A stretch of 64,000 nucleotides of DNA, taken from NCBI GenBank assembly GCA_950295325.1, contig OX485808.1:15522527-15586526 (forward strand), given 5' to 3'. This document shows, one piece after another, positions 3,574-50,689 of the stretch. The stretch is from Polytrichum commune (lineage: Eukaryota; Streptophyta; Polytrichopsida; Polytrichales; Polytrichaceae). Every line of letters begins with the position of its first letter. Positions within the stretch are counted from its first letter, which is position 1. Under the pieces are notes generated by a model, which worked only from the letters and a program-made list of their open reading frames with translations, made no database searches and was not told the DNA's origin. The translations under genes were made by a program, and so were the position numbers.

Positions 3574-6500
3574 ATGGCGAGAGAGAAGCGGCCGCTTGAG
3601 AAATATGCGTTCAAAGATGGCATGCCGGAAGAGAAGCGACAGAGACCTCAGCTTGCCAGGTCTGTGCGTCTTTGGAGAACTATTTATCCCTACTATTATA
3701 CTATACCCTGGTTGTGTTTCGTTGCGGGCCTTTCTATTATCACGCATGAGTTTTTGGAGATCTTGGGAGGCTTTACCAATATTATTGTGCTTATAACTTG
3801 CACACGAAATGCAGTAGAGCATAAATCTGCATGGTCATTAGTACTCGATAAAGGAGCATTCGGCCTTCAAAAATTTGCAAGCTTTTTCACAAGTCAGCCT
3901 GGCCGAGGTTTTTGGGTTCTTTTGGGACAATCTCTGTGTATTTAGTTCACATGTATTTACCGGGGGACAGATACTATATGTTGGAGGTTTAAACTTTTTG
4001 TTGAATTTGTGCTCTAAGAGCATCAATCTAGTGTACGAGAATTGAACTTTACGGGACAGAATTCGGTCAAGTTGTAAAGGATAGGAACTAGTGTGCTTCG
4101 TATAAAGTCTTTTTCTGGAAATGTGCTCTAACAGGTTTGTAGGGCTCAAATCACACTTACACTGGAGAAGGATTCACATTTGCACGAAATTCAATTTTTG
4201 AGCGAGTGTGGAATTGGTGGATAAGAGATGGCTCGTTCAGGAACATCGAATCACTTATGCATACTCTGGGTATGCTGATACGAGTTTGAGTTTGCCTTTT
4301 GGGTGTGCAGTGTCATTGTGGAGGCCGTGAAAATGGACAGTTTGCAAAAATTGTGCTCAACACTGGAACCTCTTCTGCGGAGAGTGGTAAGTCTTCTGGC
4401 ATTTTCCCTGGGGTAGTTGTGAATAGATACCGGAGCATTTACCTCTTGCTTTTGCTACAGAACAGTTGTTCAAGGCTTCTAAACTTTATCAATGCGTTGC
4501 TCTTTGAAGGGTGCCCATCTTTCTGCAGTTTCTTGGAAATAGAGGTTTAATTTGTCAACAATCTGCTGCATATGTGAGTGTGGCACTAGCTTATCTGCTA
4601 GGACCCCTACTTCTAGAAGTTTGTGTATGAAAAGAAAGAGTTGTAGTGCTAGAAGAATATGGTGTTTGCAAAGGTGAACGCTTGGGGTTGTATATGCAAG
4701 GCATTGTAAATAATTGCAATTGGTAGGAGTTTGGTCTTCTAGTACAAAATCTGAACAGGTTGGAGGTTACGAAAGTTTTGGATTACACAACCGCAGGCAC
4801 CTGGCAGTGGAAAAGATACTTATGGATGAGATAGGTGTTCATCCTACTCAGTGACAGGGTGGTGGTTGAGTATTGACAAACAAAGGATGGCTCTGAAAGA
4901 ACAGTTGTGCTGCTCTTGCATTATTACAGGTTGGAGAGGAAGTTGAGCGTGCTCTAGCCAAATTTGCTCCCCCTAAAGTTGGAGTTCGGTATGTGATTTT
5001 GCACCTGATATTTTTCTTCTTCTCATATTGTGTTCATTGAGGAGGTCATTGTGAAATTTTCTTGCTACATATGTGGTTGTTGACAAAGCTCCTTGTGTGT
5101 AGCTTGCAAAGTGTTGTTTTTAATATTTTAAAGTTGGAATTTGACCTGTGCAGGACCTCACCAAAGAGGATACAGGGTCCTGACCAGCGAAGTCTACGGT
5201 TGCAGTTCAGAAATAAGTTAGCTCTTCCTCTATTCACTGGAAGCAAAGTTGAAGGAGAGCAAGGAGTTGCAATCCATGTTGTCTTACAGGACGCTGACAC
5301 GGGACAGGTTATCAGCACTGGTCCTGAAGCATCAGCGAAGCTGGATATTGTGGTTCTGGAGGGTGACTTTGCAGCTGATGATGAGGAAAACTGGTCTCAA
5401 GAAGAATTTGAGAATTTTGAGGTCAGGGAGCGAGATGGGAAAAGACCACTCCTGACTGGGGAGCTTAGTGTCACTTTAAAGGATGGGGTGGGAACTCTAG
5501 GAGAGTTGACATTCACAGACAATTCCAGTTGGATACGGAGTCGCAAGTTCCGATTAGGCGTGAAGATAACTTCAGGATTCTGTGAGGGTTTGCGCATTCG
5601 AGAAGCCAAGACCGAGGCTTTCACAGTGAAGGATCATCGTGGAGAATGTACGCTTCTCCTTCTATCAATGTGATCACTTCTTTATATCAATTGATTTCTA
5701 ACTTTAGGAATTCAAGTTGGAATTATTACATTTTTCAGTAGCAGTTGCATGTGAGAGTAGATGCTGTCCTTGATTATAAAGTGGTTGTGATCTTTAGTTC
5801 CTGTTGCACTGTACCTGATAGGTTCCTGGGAACCCCTTGTTGCTGAATTTTATTGCTGTGAATTTTGAGGTTTCATTATGTATGACTTTTGCAGTGTACA
5901 AGAAACATTACCCCCCAGCATTGCATGATGAAGTGTGGCGCTTGGATAAGATTGGTAAGGATGGAGCTTTTCACAAGCGCCTAAATGTGGCTCAAATATT
6001 GACAGTGGAGGATTTTCTAAGATTGGTGGTTATGGACCCCCAACGGCTTCGCAATGTAAAGTCTCTGACTAAGAATGCCATACTTTGTTTTTGGGATTGT
6101 GTTGATAATATTTTCTCCCATGCTTATTGTATATTTCTCGATCACTCTTTCCATGTACTAGTTGACAATTCTTTTATGAGGCAGTTTGCAAAATTATAAT
6201 CCTGAAAGTTTGTGTGGATTTCTCAGATTTTAGGGAATGGGATGTCCAACAAGATGTGGGAGGGCACCGTCGAGCATGCAAAAACTTGTGTATTAAGTGG
6301 AAAGTTACATGTGTATTATGCGGATGAGAAGCAGAATATCGGCGTTATATTCAACAACATATTCCAGTTAATGGGGCTTATTGCAGATGGTGCTTATATG
6401 TCAGTAGATTCTCTCTCAGATAGTGAGAAGGTAATATACTGGTCCTTCAAGAGATAAATATATGGTTTGTATATCAGTGGTCTGAGAGGTATTTATGACA

Positions 6501-12726: not shown

Positions 12727-13715
12727 GAAGCACCAAGCTTTGGTGCAACTTAAAAGCGGTGTTTCTACTCACAAAGTTGCCACTTTAGTGGGCATGAGCC
12801 AGTCTTTTGTACGCATATGAGAAAGGATGTAGGGGGTGTTATTAAGAGACAAAGATGAGGGTGTCCAAAGCTTCTTGCATACCGAGAGAAGAGGTGTTGT
12901 GTCACTCTCGTTACTGAAGGTCAATTTCGAACTGCATCTGCGATAACAAAACAAGTTCGATCTGAAACACGTAAATTGTTGTCTTACATCATTGTGAGGC
13001 ATGCTTTGAGAGAGGCTAGATCGGGTGCACAAGTGCAACAAAAGAAGCCATTTTTTAATGTAAACATGTTCGTGCACGCTTGAGATTTGCTCAAAGGTAT
13101 GAGAATTGGACCATTGATGGTTGGAAACGTGCGTTTTTTAGTGATGAGACAAAGATAAATAGGTTTAACTCACATGGTAGGTCGTGGTGTTGGATTGGAG
13201 ATGGGAAACACGTTGGACCTCAACATGTCCATCAAACCGAGAAGCATGGTGGTGATTGGTGATGATTTGGGGATGCATGATGGCTTTTGGGCCGGGAGCA
13301 TGGTACAAAATTGAAGGTATGATGGATAGACATTTGTACAATTTTATTTTAGAAATTTCTTGTTGCCACTATACATAATTACAAAATGGATCCAAGTAGG
13401 TTGGTCTTTCAACATGATAATGATCTCAAGCACACGAGCAAGATCGTGCAAAAATGGTTGGCATCACAACCATTTCAACTCCTTCAACAGTCTGCACAAT
13501 CTCCGGATTTGAATCCCATTGAACACTTCTAAGCACATCTCAAACAACGCTTAAACGGATTTACGACACCTCCAAGAGGTATCCAAGAATTGTGGGAGCG
13601 TGTGTATTCAGTGTATCCCAAATTTAATGAACATGATTGCATGGCGATGTATGAGAGCATGCCACGAAGGATTGATGTTGTGTTGAAGAGTAGGGGTTAT
13701 TGGACCAATTACTAA
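12727..13715 (+). pseudogene. Tc1-type (DD34E) transposase, decayed
   Basis: This is a broken Tc1/mariner transposase of the Tc1 (DD34E) branch. Reading across frames, about 12730-12810 encodes a helix-turn-helix like region (LKSGVSTHKVATLVGMSQS). About 12980-13079 gives the second DNA-binding part ending in KKPFF. From 13080 the frame reads LRFAQRYENWTIDGWKR then FSDETKINRF, which carries the first catalytic Asp. A later block holds the second Asp in VFQHDNDLKHTS and the Glu in SPDLNPIEHF, with 34 residues between them. The reading is broken by several frameshifts and stops, including TAA directly after NPIEHF (13527-13529), so it cannot make an enzyme. The natural C-terminus appears to end at the TAA at 13713-13715. 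I could not find convincing terminal inverted repeats on either side. Confidence 0.9.
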
Positions 13716-13875
13716 AGATTTTGTAGGCAACTTGAACCAAATTGGATATTTGTATATAGTTTCTCATTTGGCTTTGCAACAAACTTTCTTATCATAAATG
13801 TAATGTAAAATTTTGCATACATGTGCACAAGTTTGTGCAGTATCATATCCAATTTTCAAATTTGGAAAAAAACAC

Positions 13876-16586: not shown

Positions 16587-16904
16587 CGCTCCCCGTTCGC
16601 GGAATCTTTTTCTGTTGAAGTCTTCGATTCCGCACCCTAACCCTCTCTCTCGATTTTCTTCAATTTTCTTCAGCTCATCAACATGCATGGAGGCTGATTG
16701 ACCTCGAACCAAATCACGGCAGTTTGGCAGTATTGGTTAAATCTCTTTCCTGATCCCGTTTGCAGAAACTTTTCTGTTGAAATCTTCTATTCGTCACCCT
16801 AACCCTCCACGGCACCCAGTTTTTTTGTGGCGCCAAATCTCTTCACATCCTCAACATGCAAGAAGACTGATTGAGCCCGAACCAAATCACGGCAGTTTGG
16901 CAGC
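16587..16904 (+). repeat. Tandem duplication (~173-bp offset) upstream of the DUF716 start
   Basis: Two neighbouring segments carry the same ordered blocks: TTTTCTGTTGAA, CACCCTAACCCTC, TCAACATGCA, then ACCAAATCACGGCAGTTTGG. The last block ends at 16730 and again at 16903, an offset of 173 bases. The pair lies directly before the start codon, so it probably forms the promoter-proximal region or 5' leader of the DUF716 gene. Any element it carries, such as the CACCCTAACCC telomere-like motif, is present twice. Confidence 0.85.
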
Positions 16905-16921
16905 GTCGATTCAACGTCCTT

Positions 16922-16984
16922 GAAGGATAAGCAATTTCTTTTGAAGGATAGGCAATCTCTATTGAAGAATAAGCAAATTCTTTT
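16922..16984 (+). repeat. 21-bp unit repeated three times before the DUF716 start
   Basis: Three units of 21 bases, each like AAGGATAAGCAATTTCTTTTG, run head to tail and end just before the ATG at 16989. They are in frame with the gene and preceded by another ATG at 16920. If translation starts there, they add three copies of a seven-residue unit (KDKQFLL, KDRQSLL, KNKQILL). Confidence 0.9.
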
Positions 16985-16988
16985 GAAA

Positions 16989-18949
16989 ATGGGTAGCATG
17001 GGGGGGCATGTGTTGCAGGCGATCATATTTGTAGCACTAGGGACATGGCATCTGTCTGCCTTCTTCGCAACATACTTGAAAGCACCACGAGATTACATTG
17101 CACATGCATGGTACCCAGTGAGTGGATTCTCAGGGCGTCTCAAGCACCTGGAGCTTTACCTAATGTTGTTGTTTCTTCCCCTGGCCATATTCTATGACCT
17201 CGGGATCTCCATGCAATTCCAGCCGCTTGTGAATGGGGCTATGCCATGGAGCAGCATTGTGGGATTTGAGCATGTCACCATCCTCTTCATGTTCTGGATA
17301 TTCGCTTTGATTGTGCTGGTGAGCGATACCACTTCAGCATTACCCTTCCCACCTGAGGGATCCTTCCTGTTTGCCAGCCTCGCCTTCAGCTTGCAATGGA
17401 TGTCGATTCAACATGGTGCCGACCTGAGCTCGGATTTAGAAAGGCAATGCTACACCTTGCTTGCTTACACTGCGGCTGTGTGTGCCGTTTCTTCAGGTAT
17501 GTCGGATTTCTTCCAACTTTATCAAATTCACATTTCAGTCTGGGGTTTCTGTTCTTAGTTGCCATCCACTTTAGGAGTCTTAGGGTGAAGTGGGTGAAGA
17601 GAGAATCAGAACACTGAATTGGTAGATGGGTTAACAGAATGGAGGCTTGTTGTGTGGGTTTAACTTTATGTGGCTTGTTGCATGCGAGGTTTCTTGAGAT
17701 ATGTTTAATTTCCTCTAAACTTGTATTGTTAAATGTGAGTCCGGGGCTTGGATTTTGGTTGCCATCCACTTCAGGATTCTTAAGGTGAAGAGGGTGCAGA
17801 GAGAATCAGAACACTGAGTCGGCAGACGGGTTTATAGAATGTGGATTTGTTGTCTGGGTTTCACTTTCATGTGAGGTTTCTTGGGGTATGTTGGATTTCC
17901 TCCAAACTAGTCCATTTAAATGTCAGTCCGGGGTTTGGATTCTGGTTGCCATCCACATCAGGGTTCTTAGGGTGAAGAGGGTTCATCGAGAATCAGAAAC
18001 CTGAATTGGCAGTTGGCTTAAAAGAATGTGGGTTTGTTGTGTGGGTTTAACTTGTATGTTCTGTTTCTTTAAGTGTGTTGGGTTTGCACCGAACTTGTCC
18101 ATTCTAATTTCAGTCTGGGGTTTGCATTCTTTGTGTTTACATGTTGTCATCCTCTTCAGGATTCTTAGGGTAGAGAGGATACATCAAGAGTCAGAATACT
18201 GAATTGGCTTATGGGTTTAACAGAATGTGGTTTCCTTGACTGCTACCCAAACTTGTCATACAAATTTCCATCTTGGGTTAACATTCTTCGTCGTCATCCA
18301 CTTAAGTCTTCTTAGAGTGAAGAGGGTTCATCAAGAAACAGACTACTGATTTGGCTTATGGGTGGATAGAATATGGTTTCCTTGACTGCTATCCAAACTT
18401 GTTGATACAAATTTCCATCCTGGGTTTGCATCCTTTGTTGTCATCCACTTCGAGGATTTTAGGGTTCATCGAGATGTAGAAACCTGAATTGGCAGATGGG
18501 TTAACACAATGTGGTTTTCTTATTGCGCAGGTCTTCTGGCAATCCGACCGAGAGCATTCCTTGTGAACTTGGTCCTATGTCTGGCACTCATCTTGCAAGG
18601 CACATGGCAATTCCAAGTGGCCATGTCGCTCTACTCCGAGCGGTTCATCCCCCTAGGCTGCAGCTACAGACCGAGTGGCACTCCTGGAATGAATGGCGCC
18701 GCGATGTTCAGCAGCACGAAATGTGATCTCCAGGAAATGATTGTGCGGGCGGTCGCATTGATGAACTTCGCATTCAATTGCCATGTCATCGCCGTCGTCT
18801 TCTTTTCCGTCTTCATTTTTGCTGTCGTTGCCAAGGTTTACGGTCACCGCCGTGTGACCTATGATCCCATCAGCTCCGATTTCGACTCCGAGGCCATGCA
18901 ACTCAAAAGCATGGCTGCTACAAACAAGCTGAGTTTCGAGCGGAGATAG
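16989..18949 (+). CDS. DUF716 / TMEM45-like multipass membrane protein
   Basis: This is a predicted membrane protein of 308 residues in the DUF716 (TMEM45-like) family, whose biochemical role is not settled. Exon 1 is 16989-17496 and exon 2 is 18531-18949, joined at a glycine codon across a 1,034-base GT..AG intron. Family features are the start MGSMGGHVLQAIIFVALGTW, the motif HLELYLMLLF after the first loop, GFEHVTILFMFW, and FLFASLAFSLQWMSIQHG. After the intron come LVNLVLCLALILQGTWQFQV and a last helix, VIAVVFFSVFIFAVVAKVYG. About seven hydrophobic segments are visible. The C-terminal tail is short and polar. I chose the ATG at 16989 because it gives the usual family N-terminus. An in-frame ATG at 16920 would add 23 residues made of a seven-residue repeat. 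The intron and both flanks carry tandem duplications. Confidence 0.87.
17537..18530 (+). repeat. About six imperfect tandem units filling the DUF716 intron
   Basis: Almost the whole intron is an array of units of roughly 140-205 bases. Each repeats the order: a TATGTTGGATTTCCTCCAAACTTG-like block, CAGTCYGGGGTTTGSATTCT, a TTGCCATCCACTTCAGGATTC-like block, TTAGGGTGAAGAGGGT, AATCAGAACACTGAATTGGCAG, and AACAGAATGTGG. Copies begin near 17537, 17741, 17922, 18113, 18280 and 18418. The first block resembles the true donor region (17497 on), and the last block runs into the true acceptor at 18530. Confidence 0.9.
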
Positions 18950-19351
18950 CCTCTTTTATTCTGATTTTTTTCAAAAAAAATCTCTCGGTACTATTACTTG
19001 CGACATAACTTGATCCCCAGTTCTTTCTACTCGTCCGACTTGTTTGAGAACATCGAGATTATTATACTTTTGAAAGGAGCTGTTGTAGAGTGTAAGTGTA
19101 ATGTCAAGCAACTCACCTGACAATTCAAGTGATATCATTTCCTGGCATCGAACACCCTAGGATGACCCAACAACACTTCTCACCTGCCAGTGTATGTAAC
19201 CTTGCTGTGGCAAAAAGAAAGAGCATCACAAATCCTTCATCTAAAAGGACCTATTTAAGCCTCCCAGGATTATGGTAAGTAGATTGAGCCACTCTATAAA
19301 ATTAGCTTGAAATTCCTTGTGTCTTAACGAATATATACTTCAGACTGCATG

Positions 19352-25074: not shown

Positions 25075-25488
25075 CAGAGCCCAACATTTTCCTTTCTAAT
25101 TGCACCCATACCCAGACCATGCCCATCAGCAGCGACCTATGCCCACCCATGCCCACCCATAGCATGACATGTGCGCACCCATGCCCACCCATGCCCACAC
25201 ATAGCATGACATGTGCCCACCCATGCCCACCCATGCTATTCAAATTGCGCCCATGTATTCAAAAATTATGTAATGTGTATTGTGTAATTGTGCCCCACCC
25301 ATGCCCACCCATGAACAATAATATCGCAGCCATGCCCACCCATGCCCACCCATGAACAATAATAGCTCAGCCATGCCCAGCCATGCCCGCCCATGAACAA
25401 TAATATTGCACCCATGCCCACCCAAAACCCATGGGCATGGGTGGGTATGGGCATGGGCATGGGCATGGGCGCCCAATGTTGGGCTCTG
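25075..25488. mobile_element. hAT-like non-autonomous element with minisatellite interior
   Basis: This 414-bp element begins CAGAGCCCAACATT (25075-25088) and ends with its exact inverse, AATGTTGGGCTCTG (25475-25488). It is flanked on both sides by a perfect 8-bp duplication, GTGTAGAG (25067-25074 and 25489-25496). An 8-bp target duplication with CAG-starting ends is the mark of the hAT superfamily. The interior has no gene. It is an array of the 10-bp word CATGCCCACC, in higher-order units that include ATGAACAATAATA-like and AGCATGACATGTG spacers. Near the right end the array turns to the other strand (GGGCAT). Confidence 0.9.
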
Positions 25489-26339: not shown

Positions 26340-27300
26340 CTATAAGTTCCCCTTTAATGCCCACAAATGTTCCATGAGGTCATTTCTAAGCATGTAGTGT
26401 GACCTTTCATCTTGAATCATTTCATGTCCACGTACATAATCTTCAAAGTTTAATCCACGTCTTATTGGTCCATGTTTCCATGGCACATGAATGGGTTGTG
26501 CAATTATGGGCTTCATTTCCTGATCTCTTTCATCTTCAATAATCATGTTATGCATGATTACACATGCCATAAGAATGACCTTGATGGTATTTAGATCCCA
26601 TTGATGACTTGAATTTTGAATAATTTCCAATCTTGATTGCAAAAGACCGAAGCATCGCTCCACATCTTTACGTGCAGCCTCTTGCATCTTCGTATAGTAT
26701 TGCCGTTTTTTTTTCATGAGGATTATGAATTGTTTGTACAAATATAGTCTATTTGGGATAAATCCCATCCGCTTACAAGTGATAATGTAGTTACCTATGA
26801 CCATTTTCTTTTAAATTTCATATCTTGGCCACGACCGTTCAAAAAGTTAGCCACCAAAGGACTACGATCAAGTACATTAATATCATTGTTTCCTCATGCA
26901 AACCAAACAAGGCATGGCATATCCACAAGCTCTGATCTGCAGTAGCTTCCAATATTGTGGAGCTTTTGCCCTCTCTATCTTCCATCAGTTGCATCAGATG
27001 CGATGCCATAAGCTAAAACACGCAATGCTGCTGTGCATTTTTGCAACCCACTCAACCCCAATTGGCCAGTGGCCTCTGGTTTTTGCACAAAATATGAGTC
27101 GTAGTTTTACACACTTTTTAATATTCTAAAAAATAAATGTTTGGACATTCTAAACCTTGGACGAAACATCCGTACGTCATAAATTAGATTCTCGAGAAAA
27201 TAGTCTTTCATCAAATGTTCATGCCTCTCAATTCTTTCCTGTGCAATATTCCGTCTTTTGCTAAGTCTTCAACCCCCACGCCTAGGAGGATCGACCAAGT
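26340..27300 (-). pseudogene. PIF/Harbinger transposase (DDE nuclease), decayed
   Basis: On the minus strand several conserved blocks of the plant PIF/Harbinger nuclease can be read in order. Near 27190 there is DYFLENLIYDVRMFRPRFRM in pieces. Near 27030 is CTAALRVLAYGIASDATD, and near 26850 is INVLDRSPLVANFLNGRGQD. The last part, 26804-26340, is an open frame of 154 residues with RKDVERCFGLLQSRLEIIQ, WDLNTIKVILMACVIMHNMI and IEDERD, the usual C-terminal third including the last catalytic acid. Between these blocks are stops and frame changes, so no full enzyme is made. A divergent open frame at 27749-28276 may be the element's accessory gene. Confidence 0.88.
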
Positions 27301-27748
27301 TCCAATACTTGGTTATGGAGATTGCCAACTAAACCTAAAACTACATCAGAGATATGTAGATTTTTTTCGTGGAGTATTCTAATCACTTCATGTTCTTCCC
27401 TCCTCCCAGTCAATAATCATTATCCATATTATGCTTTGAATAATCTATTATTCAATAATGTGGCTTTAATTTTTTTAAATAAATTTTTAATAAATTTTTA
27501 ATCTATATTTAGTATTCTTTTGTATTTTCACTTTTTTGACTTAAGTTTCACATATATTTACTTTTATTATTTTCAAAGTGAAGTTCATGACTATTTGCTT
27601 TTGAATTTTTTATAAATAGGTATGACATCTTTGACAAATATATCAATTTATTTTGTCGCATCTAATAGTCTCGCCCTTCATACTCAATAAGCTACGTTGA
27701 TTGCATTCAATTTTATTTCAAAGGTGTAAGAGAGGTTTTCGCGTCAAC

Positions 27749-28276
27749 ATGTCAGACGAGGAAGAAGGTAGATCTCGGAGGGTTGAAAATTACTCTCAAA
27801 ATGAAGAGATAAAGGTTTGTCAAAGTCGGATGCATATCAATGAGGATCCGATTGTGGGAGCTGATGAAAACCTAAGGGAATATACGCTAAGACGAACTGC
27901 TGCGGCTGCCACCAACTTGTCCTCTGATTTGGCTAATCGAAACAAAATTGCCAAAGAGCAAAATGATAGATTAGCCGATCAAACAGCTCTCAACCTATTT
28001 GAATTTGCTCAAAAAACAAATCCGTCTTTGGCAAGTAGGTATCGTGATATATATGTTGAGTTACGTATGCAAGAAGAGCTACTACGAGTACAACAAAGGA
28101 TGGCAAGCCAAATTCGACAACACAAAGGGACTCCACAACAACCTGTAGCTCCACCACCACCTCAAGGGACACAAGTAGGTTCATCAACTGTCAAGAAGGT
28201 GACGAGAAGGTCGGAGAAGAGGATGAAGGAGGAAGCTGAAGGAGGGGATGATGAAGAAGATGAATATGCTATGTAA
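27749..28276 (+). CDS. Probable PIF/Harbinger accessory protein (ORF1, C-terminal part)
   Basis: This open frame of 175 residues (from the ATG at 27749; upstream in-frame ATG at 27701) has no stop inside. It starts acidic (MSDEEEGRSRR), has a helical middle rich in Ala, Gln and Glu (RRTAAAATNLSSDLANRN; LRMQEELLRVQQRMASQIRQ), a Pro-rich stretch (VAPPPPQ), and a tail that is basic then acidic (RRSEKRMKEE..GGDDEEDEYAM). This layout resembles the C-terminal region of NAM-associated/Myb-like ORF1 proteins that accompany plant PIF/Harbinger transposases. No Myb/trihelix domain is visible, so it may be truncated. It lies 450 bases from the decayed transposase, in divergent orientation. The assignment rests mostly on this position. 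Confidence 0.5.
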   Translation: MSDEEEGRSRRVENYSQNEEIKVCQSRMHINEDPIVGADENLREYTLRRTAAAATNLSSDLANRNKIAKEQNDRLADQTALNLFEFAQKTNPSLASRYRDIYVELRMQEELLRVQQRMASQIRQHKGTPQQPVAPPPPQGTQVGSSTVKKVTRRSEKRMKEEAEGGDDEEDEYAM

Positions 28277-48290: not shown

Positions 48291-48996
48291 TGTATAAGAC
48301 AAGCAGAAGACAAGGCCAAGTTTTGTGGAACAACTGTTGAACTTGGCACAATTGGGTGTTGCATGGGATTCACGGATTAGTGGCTTTGGAAGTTGTTTGT
48401 AGTGGAAAAAGTGTGGGTCTAGGGATGGATTTAGGAACCTAGGGACAACTGACTTTAAGAACTTGTACTATGTTCATGTGATGCGGGTCATCCATTTTAT
48501 TTTGATTTCTACATGTCTAAGCCAATCTGCTAAGTTAATCGTGCATACCACTAATCCACACGGATTCCAAAAAGTAGGTTAAAACAGCCAGAGGGTTGAT
48601 TTAAACACCATCTTTCTTAATTCCAACTTATGTTGGGTCTTTGATCCCAACTTAGGGGTTTTAATTTCTAGAAGTAGAATCCACCACGCTCAACATAAAT
48701 AATCAACATTTTCACCCTTCCTTCCCTAGTTTGCCCTCCCCCTTAGTAGGCGTTATGGACATTCACCCAAGCTCCACATTTTCGGAGAGAGGGAATTATC
48801 ATTGATGAAGCGTACCTCTCAATGTCCATCCAACAGGGAAACTTGTCCCTTATAGGTTTGTTGCCGATTCATCTCAAATGACCTTGAGTAGATTGATCCC
48901 GAGTCTTTAAAACTAATGTTGGTATCAAACCAACCAAAAATAAGTAACCTCCAAACTGCACCCTATTTCAGAGCTTTTATCTTGGATGAATGAGAG

Positions 48997-50613
48997 CAGG
49001 GTTGTCTATTGTGTCGTGACGGAGGGTAATCCCGGCATAATGTCTTGCCGTCACGACACGTATCCGTCACGACATTATGCCGGATGCTGTCTTTATCCTG
49101 ACGGACTTGAATTTTACCGATTTTTTTGTGTAATTACATTAACCCAATTCAGACACGTAGGATTTACAATGTCCATGTGTGATGACATGTCAACAAAGTA
49201 AAGGTAAAGTGGGGAAAAATTTACTAGAGCCCGTCCGCCCCCCGTCCGCCCCTGTTCCCGACCCCGTCCGCTCCGTTCCCAACCCCGTACGCCCCGTTCC
49301 CCCCCCGTCCGCGCCCCGTTTCCCCCCGTCCGCTCCCCCGTCTGCTCCCCCGTCCGCTCCCCCGTCTGCTCCCCCGTCCGCTCCCCCGTCTGCTCCCCCG
49401 TCCGCCCCAGTTTCCCCCCCCCCCCCCCCTTCCCCGTCCGCCCCATTTTTAAAAAAAAATTCCCCCCCCTCCGTCCACTCCCCCGTCCGCTCCCCCATCC
49501 GCCTTCTTTTTTTTTTTTTTTTTTTCCCCCTTCCCCGTCCGCCCCATTTTAAAAAAAAAAAATTCCCCCCCCTCCGTCCGCCCCCGTTCCCGACCCCGTC
49601 CGCCCCCGTTCCCGACCCCGTCCGCCCCCGTTCCCGACCCCGTCCGCCCCCGTTCCCGACCCCGTCCGCCCCCGTTCCCGACCCCGTCCGCCCCGTTCCC
49701 AACCCCGTCCGCCCCGTTCCCCCCCGTCCGCCCCTCCGTCCGCTCCCCCGTTCCCCCCCGTCCGCCCCTCCGTCCGCCCCAGTTTCCCCCCCCCCCCCCC
49801 CCCTTCCCCGTCCGCCCCATTTTTTTAAAAAAAATTTCCCCCCCCTCCGTCCGCCCCGTTCCCCCCCCGTCCGCCCCAGCTTCCCCCCCCCCCCCCCCCT
49901 TCCCCGTCCGCCCCATTTAAAAAAAAAAAAATTTCCCCCCCCTCCGTCCGCCCCGTTCCCCCCCCCCCGTCCGCGCCCCGTTCCCCCCCCCCCCCCGTCC
50001 GCCCCAGTTTTTTTTTTTTTTTCCCCCCCCCCCTTCCCCGTCCGCCCCATTTTTTTAAAAAAAAATTTCCCCCCCCTCCGTCCGCCCCGTTCCCAACCCC
50101 GTCCGCCCCGTTCCCCCCCGTCCGCGCCCCGTTCCCCCCCCGTCCGCGCCCCATTCCCCCCCGTCCGCTCCCCCGTCCGCCCCAATTTCCCCCCTCCCCC
50201 CTTCCCCGTCCGCCCCATTTAAAAAAAAAAAAAAAAAAATTTCCCCCCCCTCCGTCCGCTCCCGTTCCCCCCCGTCCGCCCCCGTTCCCGACCCCGTCCG
50301 CTCCATTCCCCCCCCCCCCACCCCCGTCCGCCCCACACCCTCCTTAGTCGTTTTTTACTACTTTGATTTTAACAAAATGGTAAACAAAATGGCAAAATGA
50401 TTTACCTGGCGCTAGGCATATCCACGACCACGTCGGCGCTTTCTGCCACATAGGACGCCACCTTGGCAAGAAGGTAAGTATTTTACCCACCCTAGTCCGT
50501 TCCCCCTATGTTGACCCTACGTGGACCCTATTGTGTCGTGACGGAGGGGTCCGTCACGACACGACACGACATGACGGCACGACACCGTCATGACGTCGCG
50601 ATAGACAACCCTG
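48997..50613. mobile_element. hAT-like non-autonomous element with C-rich satellite interior
   Basis: This 1,617-bp element starts CAGGGTTGTCTAT (48997-49009) and ends with its inverse ATAGACAACCCTG (50601-50613). A perfect 8-bp duplication AATGAGAG lies outside each end (48989-48996 and 50614-50621), as hAT insertion produces. Next to both ends are many copies of GTCGTGACGG / CCGTCACGAC. The interior (about 49230-50340) has no gene. It is a satellite of CCCCGTCCGC words, with at least six copies of a longer unit (CCCCGTCCGCCCC, a T-run/A-run, CCCCCCTCCGTCCGC). The plus strand is C-rich throughout, so the minus strand has many G-runs that could fold as G-quadruplexes. Long proline-rich or glycine-rich open frames here are by-products of the repeat. 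Confidence 0.92.
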
Positions 50614-50689
50614 AATGAGAGGTATGCTCGTATGCGATTTTAATTCCCTCTCTCCCATGCTTGCACCTCCTCACACATGCAATGTCCGG

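Follow-up and report, generated by a model that had tools for sequence, protein, structure and literature searches.

Introduction

In the Ac/Ds system of maize, insertions are flanked by an 8-bp target duplication, the elements have short CAGGG-type ends, and derivatives with internal deletions retain the parental ends. Ac is ~4.6 kb long and carries one gene, and Ds elements arise from Ac by deletion at short repeats during gap repair. CAG-type short terminal inverted repeats are a trait of hAT elements. Ac and Ds represent autonomous and non-autonomous partners, and MITEs, which are usually <1 kb and AT-rich, are considered to derive from autonomous elements by deletion (PMC7385995). MITEs with internal tandem repeats have been described before, for example miDNA4 of Xenopus tropicalis and the (GTCY)n MITEs of Lepidoptera (PMC9659126).

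Here, we analysed a 64-kb stretch of DNA from Polytrichum commune (hereafter, the window) containing a short hAT-type element, the interior of which is a C-rich tandem array. By contrast with Ac/Ds, the family to which this element belongs has a gene-bearing form that carries several genes over 14-18 kb, and up to 1.6 kb of satellite is retained in the derivative. miDNA4 and the (GTCY)n MITEs resemble the window element in having a tandem array within a short non-autonomous DNA transposon; however, miDNA4 is placed under Tc1-mariner, and the part of the source cited here describes no giant parent with flanking arrays for either (PMC9659126). The Tetris foldback element and DAIBAM of Drosophila virilis resemble the family in their modularity, in their internal tandem repeats and in having rearranged forms along with a short relative with the same ends (PMC4079207). 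In the cited portion of that work, the Tetris repeats lie in the inverted repeats and also form kilobase satellite-like arrays, whereas here no array was free-standing in a sample of 100 places (PMC4079207). Giant eukaryotic transposons (PMC6431247) and Starships are, similarly to the giants described below, large and carry genes beyond a transposase; Starships, unlike these hAT giants, are classed by a tyrosine recombinase. The word hAT has 0 occurrences in the excerpted text of the review of giant eukaryotic transposons (PMC6431247), and in the titles and abstracts of the openly licensed literature we recognised no giant or multi-gene hAT, satellite-bearing or otherwise, and no hAT MITE with arrays.

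The giants with the same ends are not visible from the window sequence alone. We argue that the best explanation, to which we assign a probability of roughly three in four, is that the short copies, including the window element, are array-to-array collapse derivatives of giant gene-carrying hATs.

Results and discussion

The window element is a hAT-type insertion with a C-rich tandem array

The insertion has a length of 1,617 bp and lies at 48997-50613. It is flanked by a perfect 8-bp duplication of AATGAGAG at 48989-48996 and 50614-50621, and its ends are 13-bp inverted repeats, i.e. CAGGGTTGTCTAT at 48997-49009 (plus strand) and its inverse at 50601-50613 (minus strand; ATAGACAACCCTG as read on the plus strand). 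With 86% identity, these inverted ends stretch to 21 nt. Subterminal words, all on the plus strand, were found at positions 17 and 1539 of the element for GTCGTGACGG (49013-49022 and 50535-50544) and at positions 52, 68 and 1555 for CCGTCACGAC (49048-49057, 49064-49073 and 50551-50560). The inverse ends, the duplication and the subterminal words had been noted in a preliminary description of the window and were borne out base for base.

Between a 5' arm (48997-49229, plus strand) and a 3' arm (50346-50613, plus strand) lies the array (~49230-50345, plus strand), which consists of CCCCGTCCGCC and CGTTCCC words, poly-T/poly-A blocks and higher-order units, and the minus strand of which is G-rich. 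The tandem repeat listing gave many overlapping periods for it, among them 12, 20-24, 97, 134 and 174, and the units are arranged head-to-tail as in a satellite. The preliminary description had counted a higher-order unit at least six times in this C-rich interior, and we counted six of its poly-T/A blocks. Long open frames within the array are taken as a by-product of composition. It had also predicted G-quadruplexes on the minus strand; in agreement with this, the window copy has 20 quadruplex motifs on the minus strand and 0 on the plus strand, while 200 single-base shuffles gave a mean of 5.4 and a maximum of 10. Rfam and tRNA scans of the 64-kb window gave no match.

Array-free empty sites exist for three copies

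The target of the insertion is an older dispersed repeat, the left part of which lies at 48784-48996 and which continues at ~50622-50654. Among 40 scored of 2260 candidates, other copies of this repeat are 77-80% identical. Four paralogs are uninterrupted over the insertion point with 77-79% identity; exactly one AATGAGAG is present in two of the four (L075 and L076), and a one-base variant in the other two. The target repeat is old, ~245 bp long and partly palindromic with reversed matches (48784-48996 and 50622-50654), and is perhaps another old short DNA transposon.

In a search for further empty sites, the joined flanks of 32 copies were compared with five giant members of the family (A-E, described below), and two were found, i.e. 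for L011 and L022. The L011 site lies in the RING gene and was matched over the junction in all five giants, with 94-96% identity in A, B, C and E, 78% in D, and small gaps in B and D. The L022 site lies in the kinase gene and was matched in four of the five (B, C, D and E) with 92-97% identity. Because both sites are inside giant genes, the giant relatives are themselves targets of the short element, which inserts there together with its array. L011 and L022 are young short copies lodged in the RING and kinase genes of such relatives.

In total, three inserted copies, including the window copy, have array-free paralogous empty sites, which answers a check proposed in the preliminary description. 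The window element is confirmed as a real insertion of the hAT type.

Short copies form a family with uniform ends

We searched the 408-Mb genome (64 contigs) with the ends of the window element allowing ≤3 mismatches. The 26-bp 5' end matched 585 genomic places and the 25-base 3' end 562, both counts including giants, while the reversed controls gave 0; the 585 matches versus none in the control place the ends far beyond chance. A whole-genome search with the two ~80-bp terminal regions had been suggested before. The complete arms are similarly common to hundreds of copies, i.e. 40 scored of 594 candidates are 98-100% identical over the 5' arm and 40 scored of 606 are 99-100% identical over the 3' arm.

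The first sample comprised the window copy and 20 copies from the overlap of two top-40 arm lists (20 of 24 such pairs), and leans young because it was drawn from this overlap. All 21 copies have perfect 8-bp duplications, which all differ except for one shared by L001 and L002, and all 21 have a C-rich core of 513-1,592 bp; the mean identity of their arms is 99.5%. The second sample was made by taking every fourth entry among the first 78 exact 5' ends listed (19 on C1 and 1 on C2), and leans to well-kept ends because it was taken from exact matches. Eleven of its 20 members end within 2.3 kb, with lengths of 574-1,846 bp and 3-46 CGTCCG words; nine of these have perfect 8-bp duplications and two have duplications with one mismatch. 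Among the nine other members, L024, L029, L031 and L038 are giants, L034 is a short copy of ~600 bp, L033 carries a module with a 188-aa frame behind its 5' array, and L021, L028 and L039 make up the remainder. L037 and a copy of 2,726 bp (I) contain extra internal DNA, by eye apparently nested insertions. Some older short copies are 574-979 bp long.

As in MITEs, the short copies are non-coding, high in copy number and uniform at their ends, with terminal inverted repeats and target site duplications. However, they lack the usual MITE traits of a length <1 kb and AT-richness, the 21 copies of the first sample being 1,018-2,097 bp long with C-rich cores. Because of this length and composition, we refer to them as Ds-like, MITE-like non-autonomous hATs rather than as typical MITEs.

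The array travels with the element and changes in place

Array length varies between copies, and the array travels with the element. L001 and L002, which are ~62 kb apart and share their duplication and flanks, have 0 differences in 1,106 bp outside the array; inside it they differ by 12 indels (56, 44, 41 bp and smaller) and 13 mismatches. Likewise, in L025 and L026, which have the same duplication, the array differs by a single 13-bp indel and the 877 bases outside of it by one. These differences demonstrate that the array changes once it has been inserted; for single-base indels in homopolymers, assembly error may be the cause.

The array word CCCCGTCCGCCCC is present at 2,425 places genome-wide (reversed control, 5), of which we followed the first 100 listed (C1, up to 16.6 Mb). 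Eighty-five belong to clusters that lie no more than 1 kb from a listed exact element end. Four clusters without a listed end nearby, accounting for eight places, were fetched, and all four have arms beside the array. The last seven places are beside RING or kinase genes of the family: one (7128340) between a 3' end and a kinase gene, three (14035072-14035270) beside a kinase gene, and three (16338343-16345074) behind an exact 5' end and around RING and kinase genes. Thus, no free-standing array outside the family was seen among these 100 of the 2,425 places (C1, up to 16.6 Mb), and a free satellite seeded from elsewhere is unsupported in this sample, in which all places are near family arms or genes. 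The preliminary description had proposed a route by which a satellite is seeded at new sites. An array does arrive with each insertion; however, none in the 100-place sample had grown into a free-standing one.

Giant relatives carry genes and similar arrays

One hundred listed exact 5' ends were paired with listed exact 3' ends. Sixty-one were without a listed exact partner; of the 39 that paired, 20 were 0.74-2.7 kb from their partner, 16 were 13.7-19.7 kb from it and three were 30-46 kb from it. The 19.7-kb pair (Q) and a 46.5-kb pair are probably false because the 3' end in both is that of the 2.7-kb copy I, leaving 15 giants. These giants are 13.7-18.4 kb long and have the same ends as the short copies. 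Five were read through (A, 17,411 bp; B, 15,635 bp; C, 17,474 bp; D, 13,737 bp; E, 18,404 bp) and eight more were read at their ends; all 13 have perfect 8-bp duplications.

A hAT transposase, with an open frame in four of them, is present in all five fully read giants, alongside a kinase-like gene, a RING/coiled-coil gene and similar arrays; the genes occur in three arrangements. With M1 denoting the transposase and RING gene, M2 the 188-aa region and M3 the kinase region, the order in A, B and E is array-M1-array-M2-M3 (reversed)-reversed array-array, in C it is array-M1-array-M2-array-M3-array, and in D it is array-M3-M2-M1-array; the modules have been rearranged among the giants. In all five, arrays lie near both arms; A, B, C and E also have them between the modules, while D has none between its genes. 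In E, ~2.8 kb separates the last two arrays. The last kilobase contains three array words in giant J and 0 in giant O. Arrays were considered as drivers of module inversion and rejected in this role, the A/C breakpoints being at AT-rich edges adjoining arrays and not inside them. Giant D (L047) contains a tandem repeat with an 83-bp step at element positions 5142-5618, within the 188-aa module.

The transposase frame is open over 1,084 to 1,093 aa in A, B, C and E and broken in D; in A it matches DUF659 (3e-35) and Dimer_Tnp_hAT (3.7e-10) above cut-off. Together with the 8-bp duplications and the 13-bp inverted ends, a hAT transposase between the same ends identifies the family as hAT. Genome-wide, 42 scored of 316 candidates are 96-100% identical to this transposase, and nine of ten places on C1 are within 20 kb of a listed exact element end, as compared to 4.8% of random positions; hAT transposases in general are abundant in the genome (150 scored of 1,060 candidates). 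The RING-like gene lies behind the transposase on the opposite strand and is open over 788 aa in E. Its finger matches zf-RING_2 (2.9e-5; 24.7 bits) below the curated Pfam cut-off of 27.3, and its PDB match is RNF38 (8.6e-5); genome-wide, 57 of 264 candidates were scored. The kinase-like gene is present in A-E, shortened in A. Its product matches Pkinase (3.1e-6; 27.2 bits) below the curated cut-off of 31.7, with a best PDB kinase match at E 0.0022; 69 of 268 candidates were scored genome-wide, and 19 of 20 places on C1 are within 20 kb of a listed exact end (random positions, 4.8%). The 188-aa frame, a further module, had no Pfam match. Frames without stops make up 31 of the 42 scored for the transposase and 41 of 69 for the kinase-like gene, versus five of 60 listed matches at full length for the RING gene. 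Pairwise NG86 dN/dS values were 0.46-0.52 for the kinase, 0.40-0.60 for the transposase, 0.38-0.59 for RING parts and 0.74 for the 188-aa frame; these values, from few pairs and without a formal test, suggest that the cargo is under modest constraint similar to that on the transposase.

At C1 21.83-21.97 Mb, seven listed 5' ends in alternating orientation are 14-32 kb apart and include three giant-size pairs as well as the short copies L025 and L026 with their common duplication CATTTAAT. This region is an inverted block that has multiplied recently.

Short copies are probably collapsed giants

The preliminary description had read the array as cargo of a hAT MITE. A hAT insertion that carries an array is what we observe, given the duplications in 21 of 21 copies and the empty sites; foreign cargo is not the best reading of the array, as the giants bear related arrays. 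Because of these related arrays, the array is better read as part of a giant gene-carrying hAT family, and the short copies are probably collapsed members of it.

In the mechanism that we propose, the window element would be Ds-like and non-autonomous, and would belong to a family in which the members with genes are giants of 13.7-18.4 kb with C-rich arrays beside their arms and often between their genes. Loss of the interior between the 5' array and the 3' array would produce a short member in which one array joins the two arms. This loss would probably proceed via excision-gap repair, or via slippage or recombination between direct array words. The short derivatives could then be moved in trans by the transposase of the giants, as the shared ends and the many open transposase frames suggest. 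Finally, the array gains and loses units in place, and in the window lineage it would have expanded into the poly-T/A higher-order units.

The giant D lineage contains a junction of this kind. L030 (979 bp) corresponds to D 1-335 (93.7% identity) followed by D 13068-13719 (86.7%), with a split score against D of 1448 of 1958 as compared to 371 or 689 when a single end is used. In L032, the match to D runs from the 5' end and resumes at D 13068, the first 29 bases there being present twice in L032; its split score is 1160 of 1870, versus 381 and 482 from one end alone. In L030, the switch occurs at a 12-base word, CCCCGTCCTCCC, of which each of the two end arrays of D has a single copy (421 and 13068). 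Immediately to the left of the switch, the sequence agrees with D 347 rather than with D 421; later change of the array has blurred the breakpoint, and its precise position is not fixed. These alignments place the D-lineage joint within array sequence, as loss between two arrays would predict, and a single event may explain both copies. Moreover, both arm trees group giant D with the short copies L030, L032 and L037. The array text of L037 and I hints at a second D-lineage junction, with matches that overlap too much to fix it.

For the window's own lineage, which would have been born in the same way, no giant parent was found in the arm trees or in the arm comparison with the giants. The arms of the five giants are 87-92% identical to those of the window element at the 3' end and 91.5-97.2% at the 5' end. 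In enlarged trees, young short copies are intermingled with giants C, F and J by their 5' arms, O being sister to them, while by their 3' arms they fall into a clade of their own together with older short copies. Support for a split was weak when four young copies were compared with giant C (window copy, 1207 of 3234), and a comparison of the left and right parts of the window array by giant 5' and 3' words gave no clear split. Counted with one pattern in giants and short copies alike, poly-T/A units are present in all 24 young short copies, but in none of the 8 other short copies and none of the 17 giant arrays. Because these units are absent from all 17 giant arrays, most of the window array was not inherited as such.

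More tentatively, the arrays at the inner arm edges of the giants could be a built-in collapse site, at which elements of 14-18 kb were repeatedly converted to short array-only derivatives that outbred them, roughly as in the formation of solo LTRs, while the modules of the giants were reordered and inverted.

Alternative explanations

The order of events could be the reverse, i.e. a short array-bearing element came first, and the giants resulted when its array took up the genes for the transposase, RING protein and kinase. That both D-lineage short copies switch at the first base of the 3' array of the giant (D 13068) fits gene insertion at one site, and old short copies exist; however, a short element would need a prior source of transposase with the same ends, the giants are a distinct size class with mostly open transposases, and MITEs are considered to derive from autonomous elements by deletion (PMC7385995). 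We therefore regard the reverse order as quite unlikely. In another version, which is that of the preliminary description, the short element took up an unrelated genomic satellite as cargo. This would account for an array that makes up the whole interior and is unlike both arms in composition, and for the poly-T/A units of the window lineage, which are missing from the giants read. It is nevertheless highly improbable given that the sampled array places (100 of 2,425) were all near ends, beside arms or beside family genes, and that the giants have related arrays. Copies with the same ends and ordinary interiors had been named as evidence against any link between array and element; the gene-bearing giants come close to this case, yet they carry related arrays.

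The arrays could have a role in the element, for example in gene spacing, in promoting heterochromatin, or as G-quadruplexes that stall repair and favour internal deletion. Such a function, to which the arrays near both arms of the five giants and between the modules of A, B, C and E could point, as could the 20 minus-strand quadruplex motifs of the window copy, is unlikely because array content is poorly shared between lineages and because giant D manages without arrays between its genes. Finally, long homopolymers and near-identical units assemble poorly, and the window stretch could be a collapsed or artificial assembly; with dozens of copies that differ in flanks, duplications and arrays, and with empty sites, the chance of this is close to negligible.

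With a giant, a derivative and a junction in one genome, the family is a readable case of how short non-autonomous elements may arise from a large parent, and it joins two topics that are usually separate, i.e. gene-carrying giant transposons and the birth of satellites. Near-identical insertions with differing array lengths provide a clock for satellite change, and the many open transposase frames (31 of 42 scored) make mobility testable.

Other features of the window

Frames with plant-type domains are present in the window. A piece of a PIF/Harbinger-type transposase at 26340-26810 (minus strand) matches Plant_tran (3.3e-23); a second, unmatched frame lies nearby at 27701-28276 (plus strand). 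At 16875-19000, a DUF716-like frame (6.2e-5, just below cut-off) adjoins imperfect tandem repeats of 187 and 147 bp. Another C-rich tandem array, ACCCATGCCC, with units of 42 and 41 bp, lies at 25135-25470 and is by eye unrelated to the array of the hAT element.
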